A DNA stretch of 64,000 nucleotides. Source: Herbihabitans rhizosphaerae. Lineage in GTDB: Bacteria > Actinomycetota > Actinomycetes > Mycobacteriales > Pseudonocardiaceae. A model generated the notes under the pieces. It searched no databases and was not told the origin of the DNA. It saw nothing but the letters and a program-made list of their open reading frames with translations. Position 1 is the stretch's first letter. Each line of letters opens with the position of its first letter. Below, piece after piece: positions 6,566 through 57,841 of this stretch. The translations under genes and the position numbers were made by a program. Where the stretch lies: contig NZ_SGWQ01000005.1 in NCBI RefSeq assembly GCF_004216555.1, positions 62,001 to 126,000 of the forward strand, given 5' to 3'.

Positions 6566-7581
6566 CCGAAGCCCGGACCACCGCGGTTCCCCGGCACCAC
6601 CTGGTGACGATCCTGGTCGCGTCCTCGATCGTCGGGGTGCTGCTCGGTCTCGCGATCACCGCGACCGAGCAGATCCCCGGGTTGCCGGAGCCGGGTGCGG
6701 TGGTCCGGGTGGGCATCCCGATCACCCGGGTGCTGCTGGACATGGCGGCGGTACTCACCGTCGGCCTGTGCCTGCTGCCCCTGTTGATCGGCTTCGACCG
6801 GCCGAAGCTGGCCGAGCCGGTGCTCGCCGTGTCGCGCCGGCTGGCCGTGGCCACCTCGCTGGTGTGGACGGTGTGCGCGCTGGTCGCACTGGTGCTGCAG
6901 ACCGCCGAGATGCGGCCGGGGCGGGACGTGTCGCTCGGCTCGATCGGCGAGTACGTGAGCGCGTTCGGCTCGGGCAAGGCGCTGCTGTTCGTGGCGGTGT
7001 TCGCGCTGATCAGCTGCGGGTTGTCGGTCGTGGCGATCCGGATCGGCGAGAAGTTGCCGGCCGAGCTTCGGGTGGCCGTGGCGTTGTTCGCGCTGCTGCC
7101 GCTGCCGGTCACCGGGCACGCCACCAACTGGCGGTGGCACGACTTCACGATGATCTCCATGGAGCTGCATGTGATGGGTGCGGCCACCTGGACCGGCGGG
7201 CTCGCCGTGCTGCTCGCGCTGGCCGCCGCGAACCGGGGGCTGCTCGCGCACGCGCTGCCCCGGTTCTCCAAGCTCGCCACGGTCTGCCTCGTGGTGGTCG
7301 CGGCGAGCGGTCTGTTCAACGGGCTGGCCGAGGTGCTGGTCACGCCGGGCAAGGACCTGTTCGACGGGCTGTTCGGCACCGACTACGGCGTGCTGGTGGT
7401 CGCGAAGATCCTGTGTGTCGCGGCGATCGCGCTACTCGGCGCGAAGATCCGGTGGCGGCTGCTGCCGTCGATCGCCAGGCACGGCCGAACCGCACTGGTC
7501 GGCTGGGCGGCGCTGGAGATCGCGGTGATGGGACTGGCGTTCGGCTTCGCCGTCGTCCTCACCCGCGCACCCGTCGCCTGA
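6562..7581 (+). CDS. CopD-family copper transport membrane protein
   Basis: 339 residues with eight or nine membrane helices. Recognisable CopD features are LPLPVTGHATNWRWHDFTMI and SMELHVMGAATWTGGLAVLL, which place conserved histidines in or near the membrane. CopD is thought to bring copper across the membrane with CopC. The ATG at 6562 overlaps the copC stop (ATGA). The gene ends directly before a ~290-bp dispersed repeat that contains hairpins and could act as a transcription terminator. Confidence 0.92.
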   Translation: MTEARTTAVPRHHLVTILVASSIVGVLLGLAITATEQIPGLPEPGAVVRVGIPITRVLLDMAAVLTVGLCLLPLLIGFDRPKLAEPVLAVSRRLAVATSLVWTVCALVALVLQTAEMRPGRDVSLGSIGEYVSAFGSGKALLFVAVFALISCGLSVVAIRIGEKLPAELRVAVALFALLPLPVTGHATNWRWHDFTMISMELHVMGAATWTGGLAVLLALAAANRGLLAHALPRFSKLATVCLVVVAASGLFNGLAEVLVTPGKDLFDGLFGTDYGVLVVAKILCVAAIALLGAKIRWRLLPSIARHGRTALVGWAALEIAVMGLAFGFAVVLTRAPVA

Positions 7582-7596
7582 CCGGACAACGGCGGC

Positions 7597-7880
7597 CCAC
7601 CTACCCCTCGGCCCACCTACCCACCTACCCGACTTCACGCAGCCGGGTGTGTTGACCGCCCCGATCGAAAGCCCGCTGAGGTCGCCCTCATTGTCGAGGG
7701 CGGTCGCCCCTACGACGCCGGAGCGACAGCGGGCGAGGAACGAGCCCGCTGTCGTGGAGGTGGCGTGGCTGGACCACCCCATCAACCCAGCCACCCACAC
7801 TCGGCACCCAGCCACCCACCCAAAAAGACCACAACCCCGTTCGGCGAAGCCGAACCAGGCGACCTTGCCCTCGATAAAAA
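7597..7880 (-). repeat. dispersed repeat, copy 1 (inverted relative to copy 2 at 12656-12949)
   Basis: The reverse complement of this stretch matches 12656-12949 almost base for base, with scattered single differences. Shared landmarks are the T-rich start TTTTTATCGAGGGC, a GTTCGGC-TTC-GCCGAAC hairpin, GGTCTTTTTGGGTGGG, an imperfect CAGCGGGCTCGTTCCTCGCC palindrome, and a tail of GTAGGTGGG units. Both copies start at the 3' end of a gene (here copD). Short open frames inside are not credible genes. Confidence 0.85.
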
Positions 7881-7919
7881 ATACCGTCCCAAGTGGACAG
7901 TGGGCCGCGCGACGAACGG

Positions 7920-8261
7920 TCAGTCTGTGTCGGTGAGCTGACTCGCGGGGGGTTCGGCCCGACGGAGCTGTCCGAGCCGCTGAACGGTGACCAGCCCCCG
8001 ATGATCGAGATCACGTTTGCTGATCCAGCCCGCCGCGTAGTGCCGGTACGCCTGCGCCAGCAGCACCAGCTCGGCGAGATAGTCCCCCGCGCGGTGCCGG
8101 CTCTCCTCCGGGAGGTGCGCGACCAGCGTGAGCTGCTTCTCCACGACGTCGTCGAGCACCTGCGCCGACTGCAGCGCCCGCCTGGCACGACGGCCAGGAC
8201 GAGTGTGGCTGCTCGTCAAGCGGAACACGGGTTCGATCACCTCATCGTGGGACCGGGTCAC
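7920..8261 (-). CDS. hypothetical protein
   Basis: 113 residues from GTG 8261, Arg- and Leu-rich, soluble and helical (ARRALQSAQVLDDVVEKQLTL, DYLAELVLLAQAYRHYAAGW). No recognised domain. It lies downstream of the APH-like kinase on the same strand, separated by about 130 bp, and ends next to the dispersed repeat. Function unknown; codon use looks coding. Confidence 0.55.
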   Translation of the reverse strand: MTRSHDEVIEPVFRLTSSHTRPGRRARRALQSAQVLDDVVEKQLTLVAHLPEESRHRAGDYLAELVLLAQAYRHYAAGWISKRDLDHRGLVTVQRLGQLRRAEPPASQLTDTD

Positions 8262-8388
8262 TGGTGCCCACTCACGGTAGCGTTCAGAGCAAGCCTAGTG
8301 AGCCGTTACGCCGTTGTCGCCCCTGGGGTCGCACCGACCCGCCTCAGCGTTACCGGTTCCAGTCCACAAAGGACGGCGAACGCGCTCG

Positions 8389-9309
8389 TCAGGCGTATCT
8401 CCGCCAGCGTGCCGAGATGTCTCCGTTACGAAGATCATCGAGCCTGCTGAGCAGCTCCGGACGGATCGACGGGTTGCTCACCATGATCGGCAGCACGCTC
8501 GTGACGATCTTCAACTCGCGCAACTTTCGCAGGACCGGGAATCCACTCCAACGAGTGACATCGACACCGTACGTCCGCACCAGCTCGCGGTACCGGTCCA
8601 CCGGATCACCGAACCGGATCGTGGCCACCGCGAGCGGCGTGAGGTCCAGCTCCGGCGGGCCGACACAGGTCGCGTCGAAATCGCACAGCACCGGGCCGTC
8701 CGGCGTGGGGATCAGGTTGCCCAGGTGCGCGTCGCCGTGCACCACGCTGGTCGGGAGCTGGAACTCCAGGACCTCCAGCGCCTCCCGCACCTCGTCGCAC
8801 TGGTCCAGCAGGAACAGCCGGCTCGCCTCGTCGAGGCCCTCGGCGTCGCCGATGCGCCTGCGCACGTCGTCCACCGGATCCCACACGGGCAGCTCGAACG
8901 GCGGCAACGGCAACGAGTGCACCTGGCGCAGCAATCGGCCCAGGTCAGCGCCGCGTGGGGCCGGACCGTCCCCCGGCTCGGCCTCCCAGACGGTGGCCGT
9001 GAACCCGCCGACGCGCACCGGCTGGTCGATGTGCGGCACCAGCCGGACCGCCGGCACGCCGTGCTCGGCGAACCAGGAGGCCACCCGGACCACCTTCTCC
9101 ACCCGGTGCCGCAGCGCCGAGGAGCCCAGGATCCGCACCACGACCGGCTGCCGCTCCAGCCGGAACACCGCGTTCGCGGTGAACTTCAGCAGTCGGGCAC
9201 CCCGGTGGTCGAGGCCGAGGCGCTCGCACACCGTGGCGAGGACGTCGGCCAACCGCTCACTGGTGAGTCGATCGCCGACGCCCACATCGCCCGCCTGCCC
9301 GGCGGTCAC
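8389..9309 (-). CDS. aminoglycoside phosphotransferase (APH)-fold kinase
   Basis: 306 residues of the APH/choline-kinase fold. The catalytic loop VVHGDAHLGNL has HGD at about 191-193 with the conserved Asn, and CDFDATCVGPPELDL supplies the metal-binding Asp. These enzymes phosphorylate small molecules or act as regulatory kinases; the substrate is unknown. The GTG start overlaps the stop of the upstream XRE/TPR regulator (GTGA), so the two are translationally coupled. This pairing suggests a regulatory module rather than an antibiotic resistance gene. Confidence 0.88.
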   Translation of the reverse strand: MTAGQAGDVGVGDRLTSERLADVLATVCERLGLDHRGARLLKFTANAVFRLERQPVVVRILGSSALRHRVEKVVRVASWFAEHGVPAVRLVPHIDQPVRVGGFTATVWEAEPGDGPAPRGADLGRLLRQVHSLPLPPFELPVWDPVDDVRRRIGDAEGLDEASRLFLLDQCDEVREALEVLEFQLPTSVVHGDAHLGNLIPTPDGPVLCDFDATCVGPPELDLTPLAVATIRFGDPVDRYRELVRTYGVDVTRWSGFPVLRKLRELKIVTSVLPIMVSNPSIRPELLSRLDDLRNGDISARWRRYA

Positions 9310-10697
9310 CCCGTGAGTGTGTTCGGCCCGCGGAACTTCGCGATGATCTCGGCGAGGTCACGCGCGTCGCTGCTGTTCCTGCGCTTGGCCGCCTCGATCT
9401 GCAGGGGCTCCATGCGGTCCTTGGCCCGCACCGACTTCAGGTCGCTGGCCAGGTCGATCGCGGTGCGGCCCAGCTTGGCGCCATGATCGACGTCGCCGTC
9501 GAGCAGGTGGTTGGTGGCCAGCAGGCTCAGCCCGAAGGTCTTGCTGCGCGTCATTTCCTCGCCGTACAGGTCGATGCACCTGGTCAGCGCCGGGATGGCG
9601 AACTTGGTGTGCTCCGGGTGCTCGCCCTGGGCCAGGACGGTGTGCACGGTGCCGATCATCCCGTACACGTCGGTCTCGCCGAAGAAGCGGACCCAGTCCT
9701 CGACCTCCTTGCCCTGCGCGCGCTGCCACTCGTCGCGGGTGCGCCCGACCAGCTGCATGGCCATGTCCTTGTGACCCATCATCGCGTAGGCCCACGCCTG
9801 GTTCGCGCAGATCACCGCGACGGCCAGCTCCGAGCCGGACTCCTGCGCGGCGATCTGGCCGAGCTGCAGCATCTTCAGCGCCTCGTCGGGCGCCTTGGTG
9901 TGGATGTACACGCGGCCCATGCGGTACAGCACGTTGGCCACGAGCTGCTCGTTGCCGCCCTCCTTGGCCAGCTCCAGCGCCTTGCCGAAGTGGGTGCGGG
10001 CGGCGTCGTGCAGACCGATGTCGTGCGAGGTCCACCCGGCCAGGCTGTGCAGGTCGGCCAGCGCGATGTGCAGCTTCTGCTTCACCTGGTCGCTGGCCGT
10101 CGAGCCGAGCATCTGCCGGCCCCAGGACAGTTGGGCCACCACGGCGTCGCGACACGCGCCGCCGCCGTAGCGATAGTCGAGCGCGCGTAGCGCCTTGGTA
10201 GCCGCCTCGATCTGGCGGACGTCTGTCATGCCGATGCGGTGTGGTGCTGGCGTCTGGGCGGCATGCGCCACCCAGGACCCCGGCTCGGCGATGCCGAGCA
10301 CGTTCGCGCCGACCGTCACTGCCGCGGCGTGGGCGAGGAATTGCCGACGTTTCATCGACTCGTCCTCCTCCTCCGGCTCCGTGACCTCCTTCGAACCGGC
10401 CACCCGAACCGCGGTGACGTCGTCGTAGGCGAGGCCCATGTATCCCCTCGGGACACCCAGCCCGCCGGCGATCCGCACGAGTACGTCGTAGGCCATGACC
10501 TGACGACCCTTGAGGATCTCCGACACCTCTGACTGTGACTGGCCGGTCATCGCGGCGATCTGCCGCTGTGACACGCCGTGGCGGCGGAGCAGTCGGTAGA
10601 CCGCGCTGACCTCCCGCGCCACGAGCGCGTCTCGCATCTCGGCCTCTTCCCACACCTCAGGTGGTATCGAAGAGTCCGGCGATCCGATGGAGTTCAT
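9306..10697 (-). CDS. XRE-family regulator with TPR-like sensor domain
   Basis: 463 residues. An XRE helix-turn-helix spans about 33-85 (QRQIAAMTGQSQSEVSEILKG). An acidic linker (PEEEDES) then leads to an odd internal segment KRRQFLAHAAAVTVGANVLG (116-135) that looks like a twin-arginine signal. The remainder is a helical TPR array (DAARTHFGKALELAKEGGN, LYRMGRVYIHTKAPDEAL). The design matches Streptomyces-type developmental or antibiotic regulators with C-terminal TPRs. It is coupled to the APH-fold kinase downstream. Confidence 0.85.
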   Translation of the reverse strand: MNSIGSPDSSIPPEVWEEAEMRDALVAREVSAVYRLLRRHGVSQRQIAAMTGQSQSEVSEILKGRQVMAYDVLVRIAGGLGVPRGYMGLAYDDVTAVRVAGSKEVTEPEEEDESMKRRQFLAHAAAVTVGANVLGIAEPGSWVAHAAQTPAPHRIGMTDVRQIEAATKALRALDYRYGGGACRDAVVAQLSWGRQMLGSTASDQVKQKLHIALADLHSLAGWTSHDIGLHDAARTHFGKALELAKEGGNEQLVANVLYRMGRVYIHTKAPDEALKMLQLGQIAAQESGSELAVAVICANQAWAYAMMGHKDMAMQLVGRTRDEWQRAQGKEVEDWVRFFGETDVYGMIGTVHTVLAQGEHPEHTKFAIPALTRCIDLYGEEMTRSKTFGLSLLATNHLLDGDVDHGAKLGRTAIDLASDLKSVRAKDRMEPLQIEAAKRRNSSDARDLAEIIAKFRGPNTLTG

Positions 10698-10911
10698 CCC
10701 GCCCCCTCACAGTCGCTGGGCGCTAGCCGCAGAGTAAGTGCACTTCACACGCCTAGAACAGTATGGATCGGCGAACCTGATCGGCCCTGCCGAAGTGGGC
10801 TGACCGTTCACCGTCGAGCAATAGCCGATGGGCGCTCCAAACTCCCATGACCCTTCCACGAGGTCCAATCTAGTTTGCTGTAAGCGTTCGAGCACGGAGG
10901 GAATTCACCAC

Positions 10912-11190
10912 GTGGACGCGATCGGCTCGGCAGTGGCTCAGATGGACCCGGTGACGCCTGCTCGTGCAGAGGCCGCTCACGAGACCATCCACGGCTCGAC
11001 GAGTGGCCGCCGCGTCTGGCGCATCTCCTGTGGTGACGTGATCAATCGCGACAGATTCCTCACCGTGCTTGTCGAACGGAACCGAGTGGTCCTGGTAGGG
11101 CCTCCCGGCGAAACCGCGGTCCTGTCGGCCGGCCAACTCGGCCAGCTGCGAACCGCGCTACGAGAAGCCGCCGAATTGGCGGAAAGGTAA
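10912..11190 (+). CDS. small conserved Pseudonocardiaceae protein
   Basis: 92 residues. I chose GTG 10912, preceded by GGAGGGAATT, over the longer in-frame start at 10828. The C-terminal half (RDRFLTVLVERNRVVLVGPPGETAVLS) reads as beta strands followed by a helix (GQLGQLRTALREAAELAE). No enzymatic motif. It is followed 13 bp later by a small zinc-ribbon-like gene on the same strand. Its position divergent from an XRE regulator suggests it may be regulated by it; function unknown. Confidence 0.65.
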   Translation: MDAIGSAVAQMDPVTPARAEAAHETIHGSTSGRRVWRISCGDVINRDRFLTVLVERNRVVLVGPPGETAVLSAGQLGQLRTALREAAELAER

Positions 11191-11203
11191 CGGTGACGTT
11201 CAG

Positions 11204-11554
11204 GTGGACGAGATTCTCGGCCAGGTACTGCGCAACGCGGTGTGGGAGCGTCTGGACATGCTCTCCGAGCTCGCCAGCCGCGCTGACGCGCCGTCGCTGC
11301 TGTCCGTCGCCCGCTCGGAGCTGCCCCGGCTGACGGAGGGCTGGCGGGCCATGCTCGCCGCCCACGAGCCGGACGAGCGCGGCAACTGCCCCGCGTGCTC
11401 CTCGCGGTGGCGTCAGCAGAAGGCGCCGTGCACGGTGTGGCGCGCTGCCCACGAGCACCTGGTGGTCGGCGGACTGGCCCCGCTGCCCGCCGGACGTCAC
11501 GCACGACAGGTCACCGTCCCGTCCTCCCGCAGGGCAGTGGCCACCACCAGGTAG
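11204..11554 (+). CDS. small protein with cysteine motif
   Basis: 116 residues from GTG 11204. The N-terminal 60 residues form helices (VWERLDMLSELASRADAPSL). A CPAC...PC motif (CPACSSRWRQQKAPCTVWR) follows, consistent with a zinc-binding knuckle, then a basic tail. The gene follows the preceding small gene by 13 bp, probably in the same transcript. I do not recognise a named family. Confidence 0.6.
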   Translation: MDEILGQVLRNAVWERLDMLSELASRADAPSLLSVARSELPRLTEGWRAMLAAHEPDERGNCPACSSRWRQQKAPCTVWRAAHEHLVVGGLAPLPAGRHARQVTVPSSRRAVATTR

Positions 11555-12045
11555 AACCGACGACCTCGGGCGCCCGTTTTCCCCGGACGGTGAGCGGTCG
11601 AGGCGTCACCCCAGCCGGCGGTCCGGTTCGTCCGTCCCCCCGAACGAGACGACTCGGACCGCCGGCCCCTAAACGACAGCGACAACACAACAGAGACTCC
11701 GCGGACCGGTGCTGTTGCACTCCCCTCCCCCGACCAGTGCCGGTCCGCGGCCCCACTCGGATGGGAGAAGTGTGCTCGCGGAGAGCGCTCGCGGATCCGA
11801 GTGGTGTGTTTGTGGGGGCGAAGCCCCCACGCCCCACCCGGGGGCAAGCCCCCGGACCCCCGTAGGTGGGCCGCCGTGGACGTGGTGGCCCACCCCAAAG
11901 ACCCGGCGTTGGTGTCCGTTTCCCCGGACGGGCACCAACGCCGTCCCAACTTTCGCTGTCCTGTCCGGGTGAATCAGCGGGCGCGACGAACAAGCTTCAC
12001 CGGGACCAGGCAAGATAGAGGTGACCGACGTTCGAGGAGTCGCCC
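11555..12045. other. ~490-bp gene-free region with four hairpins
   Basis: No convincing gene. The stretch holds GTGGGGGC-GAA-GCCCCCAC (11812-11830), CCGGGGGC-AA-GCCCCCGG (11838-11855), and a larger stem with arms 11905-11914 and 11933-11942. It also has imperfect copies of a CTCGGATnnG-type sequence flanking 11755-11800. The motif TTCCCCGGACGG occurs twice (about 11579 and 11919), and one GTAGGTGGGC unit links it to the dispersed repeat family. Likely roles are termination of the small-gene transcript and the TetR promoter near its right end. Confidence 0.55.
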
Positions 12046-12654
12046 GTGGCCAGTCCCACACCGCTTCGCCGCCAGCCCGTCCAGCAGCGCAGTGCCAGAC
12101 GCGTGGAGAAAATGCTCCAGGCGTGCGCCTCGCTGATCGATGACCTCGGCTACGACGGTGTGACCACCACGCTGATCGCCGAGAAGGCCGGCGTGGCCGT
12201 CGGTTCGCTGTACCAGTTCTTCCCGGACAAGCGAGCCGTCGTGCAGGCGCTCACCCAGCGCAATCTGGATCACTACATCCGCACCACCAGCGAACGGCTC
12301 GACACCATCGAGCTGGAGCACTGGTGGGACGCGGTCGACGTGTGCCTGGACGCCTACGTCGAGCTGCACCGAACCGTCCCGGCGTTCGCCCGCATCCGCT
12401 TCGGTGACGTGGTCGACCTGCGGCTGATCGACGAGGAGCGGGAGAACAACACCGTCGTCGCCGACCGGCTGATCGAGCTGCTGGCCACCCGGTTCAACGT
12501 GCCGCGCGAGGAGGTCGCCACCCAGATGGCGGTCGCCGTGGCCGTCGCCGACGGCGTGTTGAACCTGGCGTTCCGCGATCACGTGCTGCCGGAGGACACC
12601 GTGGTCAACGAGACCAGGAAGATCATCCGCGCGTACCTGTCCGGCCAGCTCTGA
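12046..12654 (+). CDS. TetR-family transcriptional regulator
   Basis: 202 residues with a typical TetR N-terminal helix-turn-helix (about 17-65: MLQACASLIDDLGYDGVTTT, AEKAGVAVGSLYQFFPDKRA) and a helical ligand-binding C-terminal domain. GTG 12046 has a GAGGAG ribosome site. The next genes are the divergent PLP-enzyme / lactone-oxidase pair, whose intergenic region carries palindromes suited to a TetR dimer. That makes them plausible targets, but this is inference from position. The stop touches the second copy of the dispersed repeat. Confidence 0.9.
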   Translation: MASPTPLRRQPVQQRSARRVEKMLQACASLIDDLGYDGVTTTLIAEKAGVAVGSLYQFFPDKRAVVQALTQRNLDHYIRTTSERLDTIELEHWWDAVDVCLDAYVELHRTVPAFARIRFGDVVDLRLIDEERENNTVVADRLIELLATRFNVPREEVATQMAVAVAVADGVLNLAFRDHVLPEDTVVNETRKIIRAYLSGQL

Positions 12655-12655
12655 A

Positions 12656-12949
12656 TTTTTATCGAGGGCAGGGTCGCCTGGTTCGGCTTCGCCGAACGGG
12701 GTTGTGGTCTTTTTGGGTGGGTGGCTGGGTGCCGAGTGTGGGTGGCTGGGTTTCGTGGGTGGTTCAGTCACGCCTCCTCCGAGACAGTGGGCTCGTTCCT
12801 CGCCCGCTGTCCCTCCGGCGTCGTAGGGGCGACCGCCCTCGACAATGAGTTTCGACCTCAGCGGGCTTTTGATCGGGGCGGTCAACACACCCGGCTGCGT
12901 GAAGTCGGTAGGTGGGTCGACGACGGTAGGTGGGCCGGGGGTAGGTGGG
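12656..12949 (+). repeat. dispersed repeat, copy 2 (inverted relative to copy 1 at 7597-7880)
   Basis: Begins with TTTTTATCGAGGGCAGGGTC two bases after the TetR stop. It continues with the same hairpin, T-run, palindromes and GTAGGTGGG units as copy 1. It fills the space between the TetR gene and the convergent PLP-enzyme gene, so it could terminate transcription in both directions. Copy 2 differs from copy 1 mainly in the middle (about 12750-12785) and near the GTAGGTGGG tail. Confidence 0.85.
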
Positions 12950-14179
12950 TCAGCCGAAGGACTGGCCTTCGCCGCGGTAGGTGGGGACTGTGCGTTCGAG
13001 GCGCTCGCCGGTCAGTACGTGGTAGTCGGTGAACCGCTCGGCCAGCTCGCCGGCCTTGGCGTGCCGCAGCCACACGCGGTCGCCGACGCGCAGGCCGTTG
13101 GCCGCCTTGCCGACCACCGGCGTCTGCACCTCGCCGGCGCCCTCGAACGGCAGCAGCCGCAGGCCCGCCGGCAGGTACGGCCGCGGCTGGCGATCCTGAC
13201 CCACCGGCCCGGAGGCGATGTAGCCACCGCTGAACAGGGTGGCGATGCCCCGTCCCGGCCGCCGGCCGACCGGCAGCGCGAACAGCACGGCCGGTTTCGG
13301 CGCGAACCGGCTGTAGTTGTCGAACAGGGTCGGGCCGATCAGCCCGGAGCCGGCCGCCACCTCGGTCACCGACGCGTCCGCGACCGTGGTCTCCACGCTG
13401 CCGGTGCCGCCGCCGTTGACGAACTCCAACTCGGTCAGCTCACGCACCGCGGACACCGCGGCGGACCGGCGCGCGGCCAACTCCTCGCTGGAGTTGCGCT
13501 GCGCCCACCGCAGCAGGGCGCCCACGAGCGGTTTGCCGGCCGGCCGGTCGCCCAGCCCGGCTATCTGTCCCTCGTAGCCCATCAGGCCCACCAGGCGGAA
13601 ACCAGGGCGGCGCAGGACCACCTTCGCGACCTCGACCGCCTCCTTCGGGGTGAACACCGGCGAGCGGCGAGTTCCGACGTGCACAAGGCCCCGTCCGAGC
13701 AGCGGCCGCCACGACACGTCCAGCTCCAGGCACACCCGGATCTCCGGGTGGTCGGCGCCGAGTGCCGCGTCGATCAGGTCCAGGTGCTCGACCGAGTCGA
13801 CGATCACCGACGTGTGCTCGCGCGCCCGGCGGTCGGCGGCGAGCCGGCGCAGCGCGGTGTGGTCCACCGTCGGGTAGGCGACCAGCAGGTCGGTGTCCGC
13901 CAGGCCGGTGTCCGCCCAGCGCTCGGACAGCCAGAGCGCCTCCGGCAGCGAGTAGCACATGACGCCGGCGAATCCCGGCTGGCCGAGCACCCGCTCCAGC
14001 AGATACCGGCAGCGGATCGACTTGCTGGCCACCCTGATCGGGCGGCCGGCGGCGCGGCGCACCAGGTCGACGGCGTTGGCGTCGAACGCGTCCAGGTCGA
14101 CAGCGGCGAGCGGCGCCTCGAGGTGCTTGGTCGCGACGTCGAGGCGCGGGAGCATGGTCGACCTGATCACGGATCTCAC
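12950..14179 (-). CDS. fold-type III PLP enzyme (amino acid deaminase/aldolase-like)
   Basis: 409 residues; in-frame ATG 14155 is an alternative start giving 401. The alanine-racemase N-terminal fold is visible, with the PLP lysine in RVASKSIRC (K53), the phosphate-binding end EFVNGGGTGS, and a C-terminal domain like D-threonine aldolase/D-serine dehydratase proteins. Such enzymes act on D- or beta-hydroxy amino acids; the substrate here is unknown. It is divergently transcribed from a sugar-lactone oxidase gene, a pairing I recognise from other actinobacteria, and shares an operator-like region with it. Confidence 0.85.
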   Translation of the reverse strand: MRSVIRSTMLPRLDVATKHLEAPLAAVDLDAFDANAVDLVRRAAGRPIRVASKSIRCRYLLERVLGQPGFAGVMCYSLPEALWLSERWADTGLADTDLLVAYPTVDHTALRRLAADRRAREHTSVIVDSVEHLDLIDAALGADHPEIRVCLELDVSWRPLLGRGLVHVGTRRSPVFTPKEAVEVAKVVLRRPGFRLVGLMGYEGQIAGLGDRPAGKPLVGALLRWAQRNSSEELAARRSAAVSAVRELTELEFVNGGGTGSVETTVADASVTEVAAGSGLIGPTLFDNYSRFAPKPAVLFALPVGRRPGRGIATLFSGGYIASGPVGQDRQPRPYLPAGLRLLPFEGAGEVQTPVVGKAANGLRVGDRVWLRHAKAGELAERFTDYHVLTGERLERTVPTYRGEGQSFG

Positions 14180-16892: not shown

Positions 16893-16992
16893 GGAAAGCC
16901 GGAAAGCCGGAAAGCCGGAAAGCCGGAAAGCCGGAAAGCCGGAAAGCCGGAAAGCCGGAAAGCCGGAAAGCCGGAAAGCCGGAAAGCCGGAA
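16893..16992 (+). repeat. 8-bp tandem repeat (GGAAAGCC, 12 full copies plus 4 bp)
   Basis: Twelve uninterrupted perfect copies of GGAAAGCC run from 16893 to 16988, followed by GGAA. The tract starts 8 bp after an ATG (16885) and lies directly before the GT-B-like open frame. Because 8 is not a multiple of three, each gain or loss of a copy changes which frame an upstream start feeds into. In the forward direction all three frames of the tract are stop-free. Confidence 0.97.
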
Positions 16993-22850: not shown

Positions 22851-22925
22851 GGGGGGCTCGGCCCCCCAAAATAAAGACGGGCGACGCGGTCCGCGCTTTC
22901 CGCGGACACACGTCGCCTGAGACCG
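22851..22925 (-). terminator. hairpin element trailing tRNA-Leu
   Basis: Immediately 3' of the tRNA on its own strand. First a 7-bp stem (22901-22907 with 22889-22895) with a GAAAG pentaloop, then a short T-rich stretch (GTCTTTATTTTGG), then a GGGGGGC/GCCCCCC stem (22851-22867). A closely similar element follows tRNA-Ala at 57.7 kb. It likely serves transcript termination or 3' processing. Confidence 0.7.
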
Positions 22926-23008
22926 TGGGCGAGGGGGGAGTTGAACCCCCACGTCCTTTCGGACACACGGACCTGAACCGTGCGCGTCTGCCATTCCGCC
23001 ACTCGCCC
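22926..23008 (-). tRNA. tRNA-Leu (CAG)
   Basis: The reverse strand folds as a class II tRNA. GGGCGAG pairs with CTCGCCC at the acceptor, the D-arm is GGCGGAATGGCAGACGC, the anticodon loop reads TTCAGGT (anticodon CAG), and there is a long variable arm (GTGTCCGAAAGGACGTG) and a T-arm with GGTTCAACTCC. The discriminator is A; CCA is not encoded. 83 nt. It lies upstream of and divergent from fhaA. Confidence 0.95.
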
Positions 23009-57660: not shown

Positions 57661-57768
57661 GTCCGGGCGCCCCAGCGCCCGGACATTCGGGGGTCTGGGG
57701 TCGTCCCCCAGAAATAGTGACGAGCGACGCGATCCGCGCTCTCCGCGGACACACGTCCGCCGAGCGAG
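57661..57768 (-). terminator. hairpin element trailing tRNA-Ala
   Basis: Same design as the element after tRNA-Leu. A 7-bp stem (57744-57750 with 57732-57738) has a GAGAG pentaloop, then a short A/T stretch and a CTGGGG/CCCCAG stem. An extra perfect stem (57661-57670 with 57675-57684) follows. The first ~55 bp downstream of both tRNAs align closely, including the CGTGTGTCCGCGGA segment on the tRNA strand. Confidence 0.7.
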
Positions 57769-57841
57769 TGGAGCTAAGGGGACTTGAACCCCTAACCCCT
57801 GCCTTGCAAAGGCAGTGCTCTGCCAGTTGAGCTATAGCCCC
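57769..57841 (-). tRNA. tRNA-Ala (TGC)
   Basis: Reverse strand, 73 nt: acceptor GGGGCTA/TAGCTCC, D-arm AGCTCAACTGGCAGAGC, anticodon loop TTTGCAA (anticodon TGC), T-arm with GGTTCAAGTCC, discriminator A; CCA not encoded. The acceptor holds a G:T pair. tRNA-Ala and tRNA-Ile near gyrA is the usual actinobacterial order. Confidence 0.96.

Follow-up and report, generated by a model that had tools for sequence, protein, structure and literature searches.

A dispersed family of hairpin-rich repeats at gene 3' ends in Herbihabitans rhizosphaerae probably consists of degenerate copies of a lineage-specific miniature mobile element

Two near-identical repeats of about 290 bp lie in opposite orientations, both between convergent genes, in the 64,000-nt stretch of the Herbihabitans rhizosphaerae genome that was analysed here (C5:62001-126000, hereafter the window; the genome comprises 6.63 Mb in 25 contigs). 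With orientation A taken as the strand on which CCCACCTAC units lead and GATAAAA trails, copy A occupies 7594..7880 on the plus strand and copy B occupies 12656..12949 on the minus strand. A CopD-like gene (PF05425; 6562..7581, plus strand, start codon picked by eye) has its stop 12 nt upstream of copy A, the first GGCCCACCTACC unit of which is at 7594; on the other side, a small gene that has no Pfam match but is present in relatives runs towards CopD (7920..8261, minus strand). Copy B fills the spacer between a TetR-family gene (12046..12654, plus strand), which ends 1 nt before the T-run that opens the copy at 12656, and an alanine-racemase-like gene (N-domain PF01168; 12950..14179, minus strand), the stop codon of which (12950-12952) abuts the other end. 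An earlier note on this DNA had described an inverted pair of near-identical repeats about 5 kb apart, and the pair was recovered at the same coordinates within a few bases: the inverted arms 7687-7880 and 12656-12849 are 94% complementary over 194 nt, and the arms 7629-7684 and 12853-12908 are 98% complementary over 56 nt. Copies A and B are 93.6% identical across 264 nt, a likeness far above chance. The hairpins, T-runs and GTAGGTGGG units attributed to the repeats were all found; the statement that each repeat starts at a stop codon holds for copy B, which is flush with the gene stops, but not for copy A.

Genome searches with copy A and with a member of a second subfamily scored only part of the candidates, so the counts that follow are lower bounds. 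The copy A query (311 bases) gave at least 43 genome matches at E<=0.001, with 40 of 101 candidates scored; the pair in the window belongs to a family of dozens of copies. Twenty-six of these matches cover at least 232 of the 311 nt at 78-100% identity and are referred to as family I, the subfamily of the window; their cores are 77-97% identical in pairwise comparison (mean 88%). A second, divergent subfamily (family II) was reached via partial matches, and its query returned at least 41 genome matches, many of them family I copies (40 of 158 candidates scored). The right-end motif, with at most one mismatch, occurs at 39 genome sites, compared to a single site for the reversed control. Across all searches, about 50 distinct places were counted by eye, fragments included. 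No open frame is shared by the 26 family I cores: the best of the six frames is stop-free in only 15 of them and none is open in all 26, which upholds the earlier view that the repeats hold no gene-like frame and speaks against a conserved peptide.

Family I elements are about 290 bp long and carry an extra internal hairpin block and a variable CCCACCTAC array at one end. In orientation A, the variable array (7594..7628, plus strand, in copy A) is followed by conserved sequence that runs from GACTTCACGCAGCC to GCTGAGGTCG and then by a long imperfect palindrome that spans TCGAGGGCGGTCGCC to GGCGACCTTGCCCTCGA with hairpins inside; in copy A the palindrome extends over 7694..7876 on the plus strand, where the outer arms, TCGAGGGCGGTCGCC starting at 7694 and GGCGACCTTGCCCTCGATA finishing at 7876, flank the hairpins. 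The longer unit form, GGCCCACCTACC, has 21 sites in the genome and all 21 lie, by position, within listed copies. The precise borders of family I copies are uncertain, and a second end motif is found further out in at least 5 of the 26 copies, 27 bp away in the four that were placed. The inner half of family II differs from that of family I, with pairing still possible by eye. At the 5' end of one full copy (L018, C6:429466-429483), a second inverted element end directly adjoins, like the remnant of a nested insertion.

Sharp ends are present in some of the divergent copies, which begin with ATGTCTGAGAACTGCGCC and finish with GAGTTATCAGACAC, thereby forming terminal inverted repeats (TIRs) of sequence TGTCTGANAAC. 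Exact TGTCTGANAAC sites number 12 in the genome, of which eight are ends of these elements. With one mismatch allowed, 33 sites were listed; ten GTCTGAGAAC loci were read and nine were kept as elements (L190 was dropped). The nine TIR-bearing elements range in length from 100 to 186 bp, with three reaching 186 bp, and the best preserved contain an inner imperfect palindrome. When the 8-mers flanking each element were compared at one fixed offset, 8, 7, 7, 6, 5, 4, 3, 1 and 0 of 8 positions matched; the total of 41 matches compares to 29.1 in shuffled pairings (p=0.0014, with the offset picked after viewing). Two of the poorly matching cases reach 6/8 and 8/8 if the end is shifted by eye, and these were not counted. 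The left targets of the TIR-bearing copies mostly end in TNAG, and the stop codon of the upstream gene ends 2-6 nt before GTCTGAGAAC in seven of the nine. Locus L203 (C11:149907-149921) holds a decayed copy, about 109 nt in length, in which the end repeats are recognisable and the usual palindrome is missing.

The orthologous loci of relatives were compared at loci L094-L135 (42 of 80 retrieved). The spacer between the alanine-racemase-like and TetR genes measures -4 to 571 nt in 40 relative loci and 295 nt here; the spacer between the small gene and CopD, available for eight relative loci, measures 86-87 nt in five and 891-1185 nt in three, and 338 nt here. None of the 48 orthologous spacers contains a copy, the only BLAST match being 30 nt long at E=0.011. 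Most likely, this lineage acquired its copies itself. As an observation in its own right, the alanine-racemase-like/TetR spacers of two Amycolatopsis loci (L111, L117) and two Saccharothrix loci (L096, L124) contain, by eye, other repeated motifs, for example around CCCCAATGTGGCATTGGGTGC, and this convergent spacer may collect different lineage-specific repeats.

Searches beyond the source genome gave few matches. The copy B query found a short match in 2 of 40 relatives, and the family II query matched 4 of 389 other genomes of the family at 77-83% identity over 47-64 nt, with two candidates scored per genome and no convincing copy among them. Four of six weak matches elsewhere lie within called genes and two (L091, L092) lie outside; L092 (47 nt, 83%), a hairpin that lies in the spacer downstream of a gene in a genome of the same family, may be distantly related. 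Nothing was returned by scans of GTDB and IMG/VR with strict patterns or by BLAST searches of plasmids and phages, records close to the source genome being outside the scan. A longer end pattern, too strict to match the copies in the own genome, gave one match each in two of 390 genomes of the family; both matches lie in called genes, and neither has a partner end in the examined stretch. As far as these searches reach, the element family appears to be lineage-specific.

Gene contexts were assigned with a simple codon-based gene caller, which did not detect the small gene at 7920. The spacer is convergent for 18 of 42 copies and divergent for 7; the others sit in tandem spacers, 10 pointing in the direction of the genes and 7 in the opposite direction. 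As background, the window has 60 gene pairs, of which 16 are convergent and 16 divergent, and divergent spacers make up 6150 of its 10742 intergenic bases. The gene on the 5' side reads into the element in 28 of the 42 copies, and in 17 of the 26 family I copies a stop codon falls on that side between -2 and 30 nt from where the match begins (stop-to-copy distances over the 42 copies were counted from BLAST match starts). The other end was examined for hairpins. At a cut-off of 8 bp, 10 of 47 copies scored, compared to 1-5 of 47 at shifted places; the cut-off was raised to 11 bp after this result was seen, and a hairpin of at least 11 bp was then found just beyond the GATA end in 9 of 47 copies, compared to 8 of 2209 control bins and 2 of 1500 random bins of the window. 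These hairpins may be the terminators of neighbouring genes.

Taken together, these data suggest, with a probability of roughly 0.78, that the repeats are degenerate copies of an old, lineage-specific, non-autonomous element resembling a miniature inverted-repeat transposable element (MITE), with a target that overlaps stop codons. A non-autonomous mobile element had been among the possibilities raised by the earlier note, and it is now supported by the many copies, by spacers that are filled only here, and by the TIRs and some target duplications of related copies. A transposase acting in trans would have moved the element in several bursts; we infer both this enzyme and its cutting. The TNAG in which most left targets end overlaps stop codons (TGA-G, TAA-G, T-TAG), and insertion at a stop codon would duplicate the stop or leave it in place, so that the upstream gene would be spared. 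Most insertions into coding sequences or promoters would have been lost, with retention mainly behind genes, and target duplications of about 8 bp would persist in some of the best preserved copies. Since the window's subfamily lacks target duplications, its mobility is argued from kinship: judging by the internal sequence that they share, it presumably moved in the same way as the TIR-bearing copies.

Several observations weigh against this interpretation. In family I, both window copies included, the 5' end shows no recognisable TIR. The check for target duplications, which the earlier note had proposed, gave a mixed picture: three of the nine TIR-bearing copies have 7-8 of 8 flanking bases alike, another three match at 3 or fewer of 8 at the fixed offset, and 35 family I and II copies, including those of the window, show no excess above chance. 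The other four exact TGTCTGANAAC sites have no element around them, and in 14 of the 42 copies no gene reads into the 5' end. Searches by exact ends and for IS66 and IS256, the only families searched, revealed no autonomous element with matching ends; no IS66 transposase was found in the genome, and a single partial IS256-type match has no paired ends in the surrounding 3.4 kb examined. Furthermore, the relatives used for the empty spacers belong to other genera rather than being other strains, and the lack of copies in other genomes carries less weight than it might seem to, because only two candidates per genome (family II query) or at most 18 (copy B query) were scored.

It is conceivable, if rather doubtful, that a transposition system favouring stop codons also inserted beside terminator hairpins, and that the window's subfamily is a later, TIR-less expansion.

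It also seems unlikely that the elements are mainly functional RNA structures of gene 3' ends (terminators or stabilisers of mRNA 3' ends) that were multiplied by recombination and kept by selection, although a number of results point in that direction. On the orientation-A strand, copy B folds better than its shuffles (z -2.82); the outer closing helix has 97% of cells paired over the 26 copies, and the whole family I structure has 91.1% of cells paired, a value matched by 1 of 500 shuffles. Such a role would also suit the genes that read into most copies. Each window copy contains one terminator-like site of 8 pairs (4 G-C), on one strand only, and the regions gave 2 sites compared to 0.2 in shuffles, and 1 compared to 0.6. 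However, 3 pairs have changed on both sides, compared to 1.7 among shuffles, of which 23 in 500 reach that count, and the covariation score is 0.035 compared to 0.031 (22 of 500 as high), with slid structures reaching 0.043; the palindrome is real, but covariation is weak as a sign of selection on RNA structure. The opposite strand folds no better than shuffles (z 0.25), and a stretch of a family II copy gave nothing unusual when it was folded as DNA (z -1.32). The hairpins of at least 11 bp in 9 of 47 copies lie just outside the element, and a separate terminator-like hairpin is therefore already there. Group II introns can target terminators. Rfam models run over 7500-13000 with E up to 5 gave no match inside either repeat, the two listed matches lying elsewhere, which speaks against any RNA family already described, including these introns. 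A terminator role of the element itself is possible.

It is improbable that these are repetitive extragenic palindromic (REP) sequences or bacterial interspersed mosaic elements that a RAYT (Y1) transposase moves by way of single-strand hairpins. The hairpins between genes and the end units with GTAG recall this class, and the earlier note had considered a REP-like element, a membership that is not supported. REPs are palindromes of 20-40 bp ending in GTAG, with hairpins that are intergenic and GTAG close by (PMC3733652); here, in contrast, the units are not palindromes of that size with GTAG at one end, and GTAG lies in the variable end array of an element of about 290 bp. The TIRs and partial 8-bp duplications of the related copies also better fit a double-strand mechanism.

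The closest described relatives in kind are YPAL/RU-2 and ERIC (PMC2229807). YPAL/RU-2 of Yersinia (about 168 bp) is likewise intergenic, not A+T-rich and endowed with internal inverted repeats, and its targets span or adjoin dyad symmetry and are duplicated; it differs in host and size and in duplications of 3 to 26 bp, compared to about 8 bp in some copies here. In the present family, related copies carry TIRs of 11 bp and have a stop codon at the target; the comparison is one of descriptions and not of sequences. ERIC/IRU/RU-1 (127 bp) shares dispersal in transcribed intergenic DNA, a TIR and a target duplication; it is enterobacterial, with a 7-bp TIR and TA at its termini (PMC2229807), whereas the ends here are TGTCTGA and the G+C content is 65-67%. 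The Tn3-derived miniature elements known as TIMEs are also non-autonomous, start at 262 bp and have inverted repeats and a duplication, but theirs are 38-bp Tn3-type repeats and 5-6-bp duplications (PMC4133298). No description of the present element was found in the literature, which was searched mostly without subscription papers. As a miniature mobile element, it would explain the 3'-end repeats of a thinly sampled actinobacterial genus, and would offer a case, open to experiment, in which an element inserts at stop codons and leaves the gene unharmed; hairpin-rich 3' ends can then be mobile DNA and not dedicated terminators. It is otherwise an ordinary kind of bacterial repeat.

The proposal that the pair forms an invertible switch for the intervening 4.8-kb APH/XRE/TetR segment has next to no likelihood: long inverted repeats at that spacing could recombine, but TetR, XRE and APH, all found in 31 of the 42 relative loci, point in 31 of 31 the same way as in the window with respect to the alanine-racemase-like gene, the small gene and CopD are convergent in the eight relative loci as in the window, the two repeats are only two among dozens of copies, and of the six proteins encoded between them three have Pfam matches, none to recombinases, and three have no match. 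In this assembly the interval has the gene order and orientation of relatives and is thus uninverted, and the flipping that the earlier note thought possible is not supported.

Other repeats are also present in the window. A tandem array of the octamer GGAAAGCC, with about 12 perfect units, lies at 16893-16988. Two direct repeats of 96 nt, 77% alike and ending in TTGAACCCC, lie at 22854-22949 and 57697-57792; these are perhaps tRNA genes with similar flanks.

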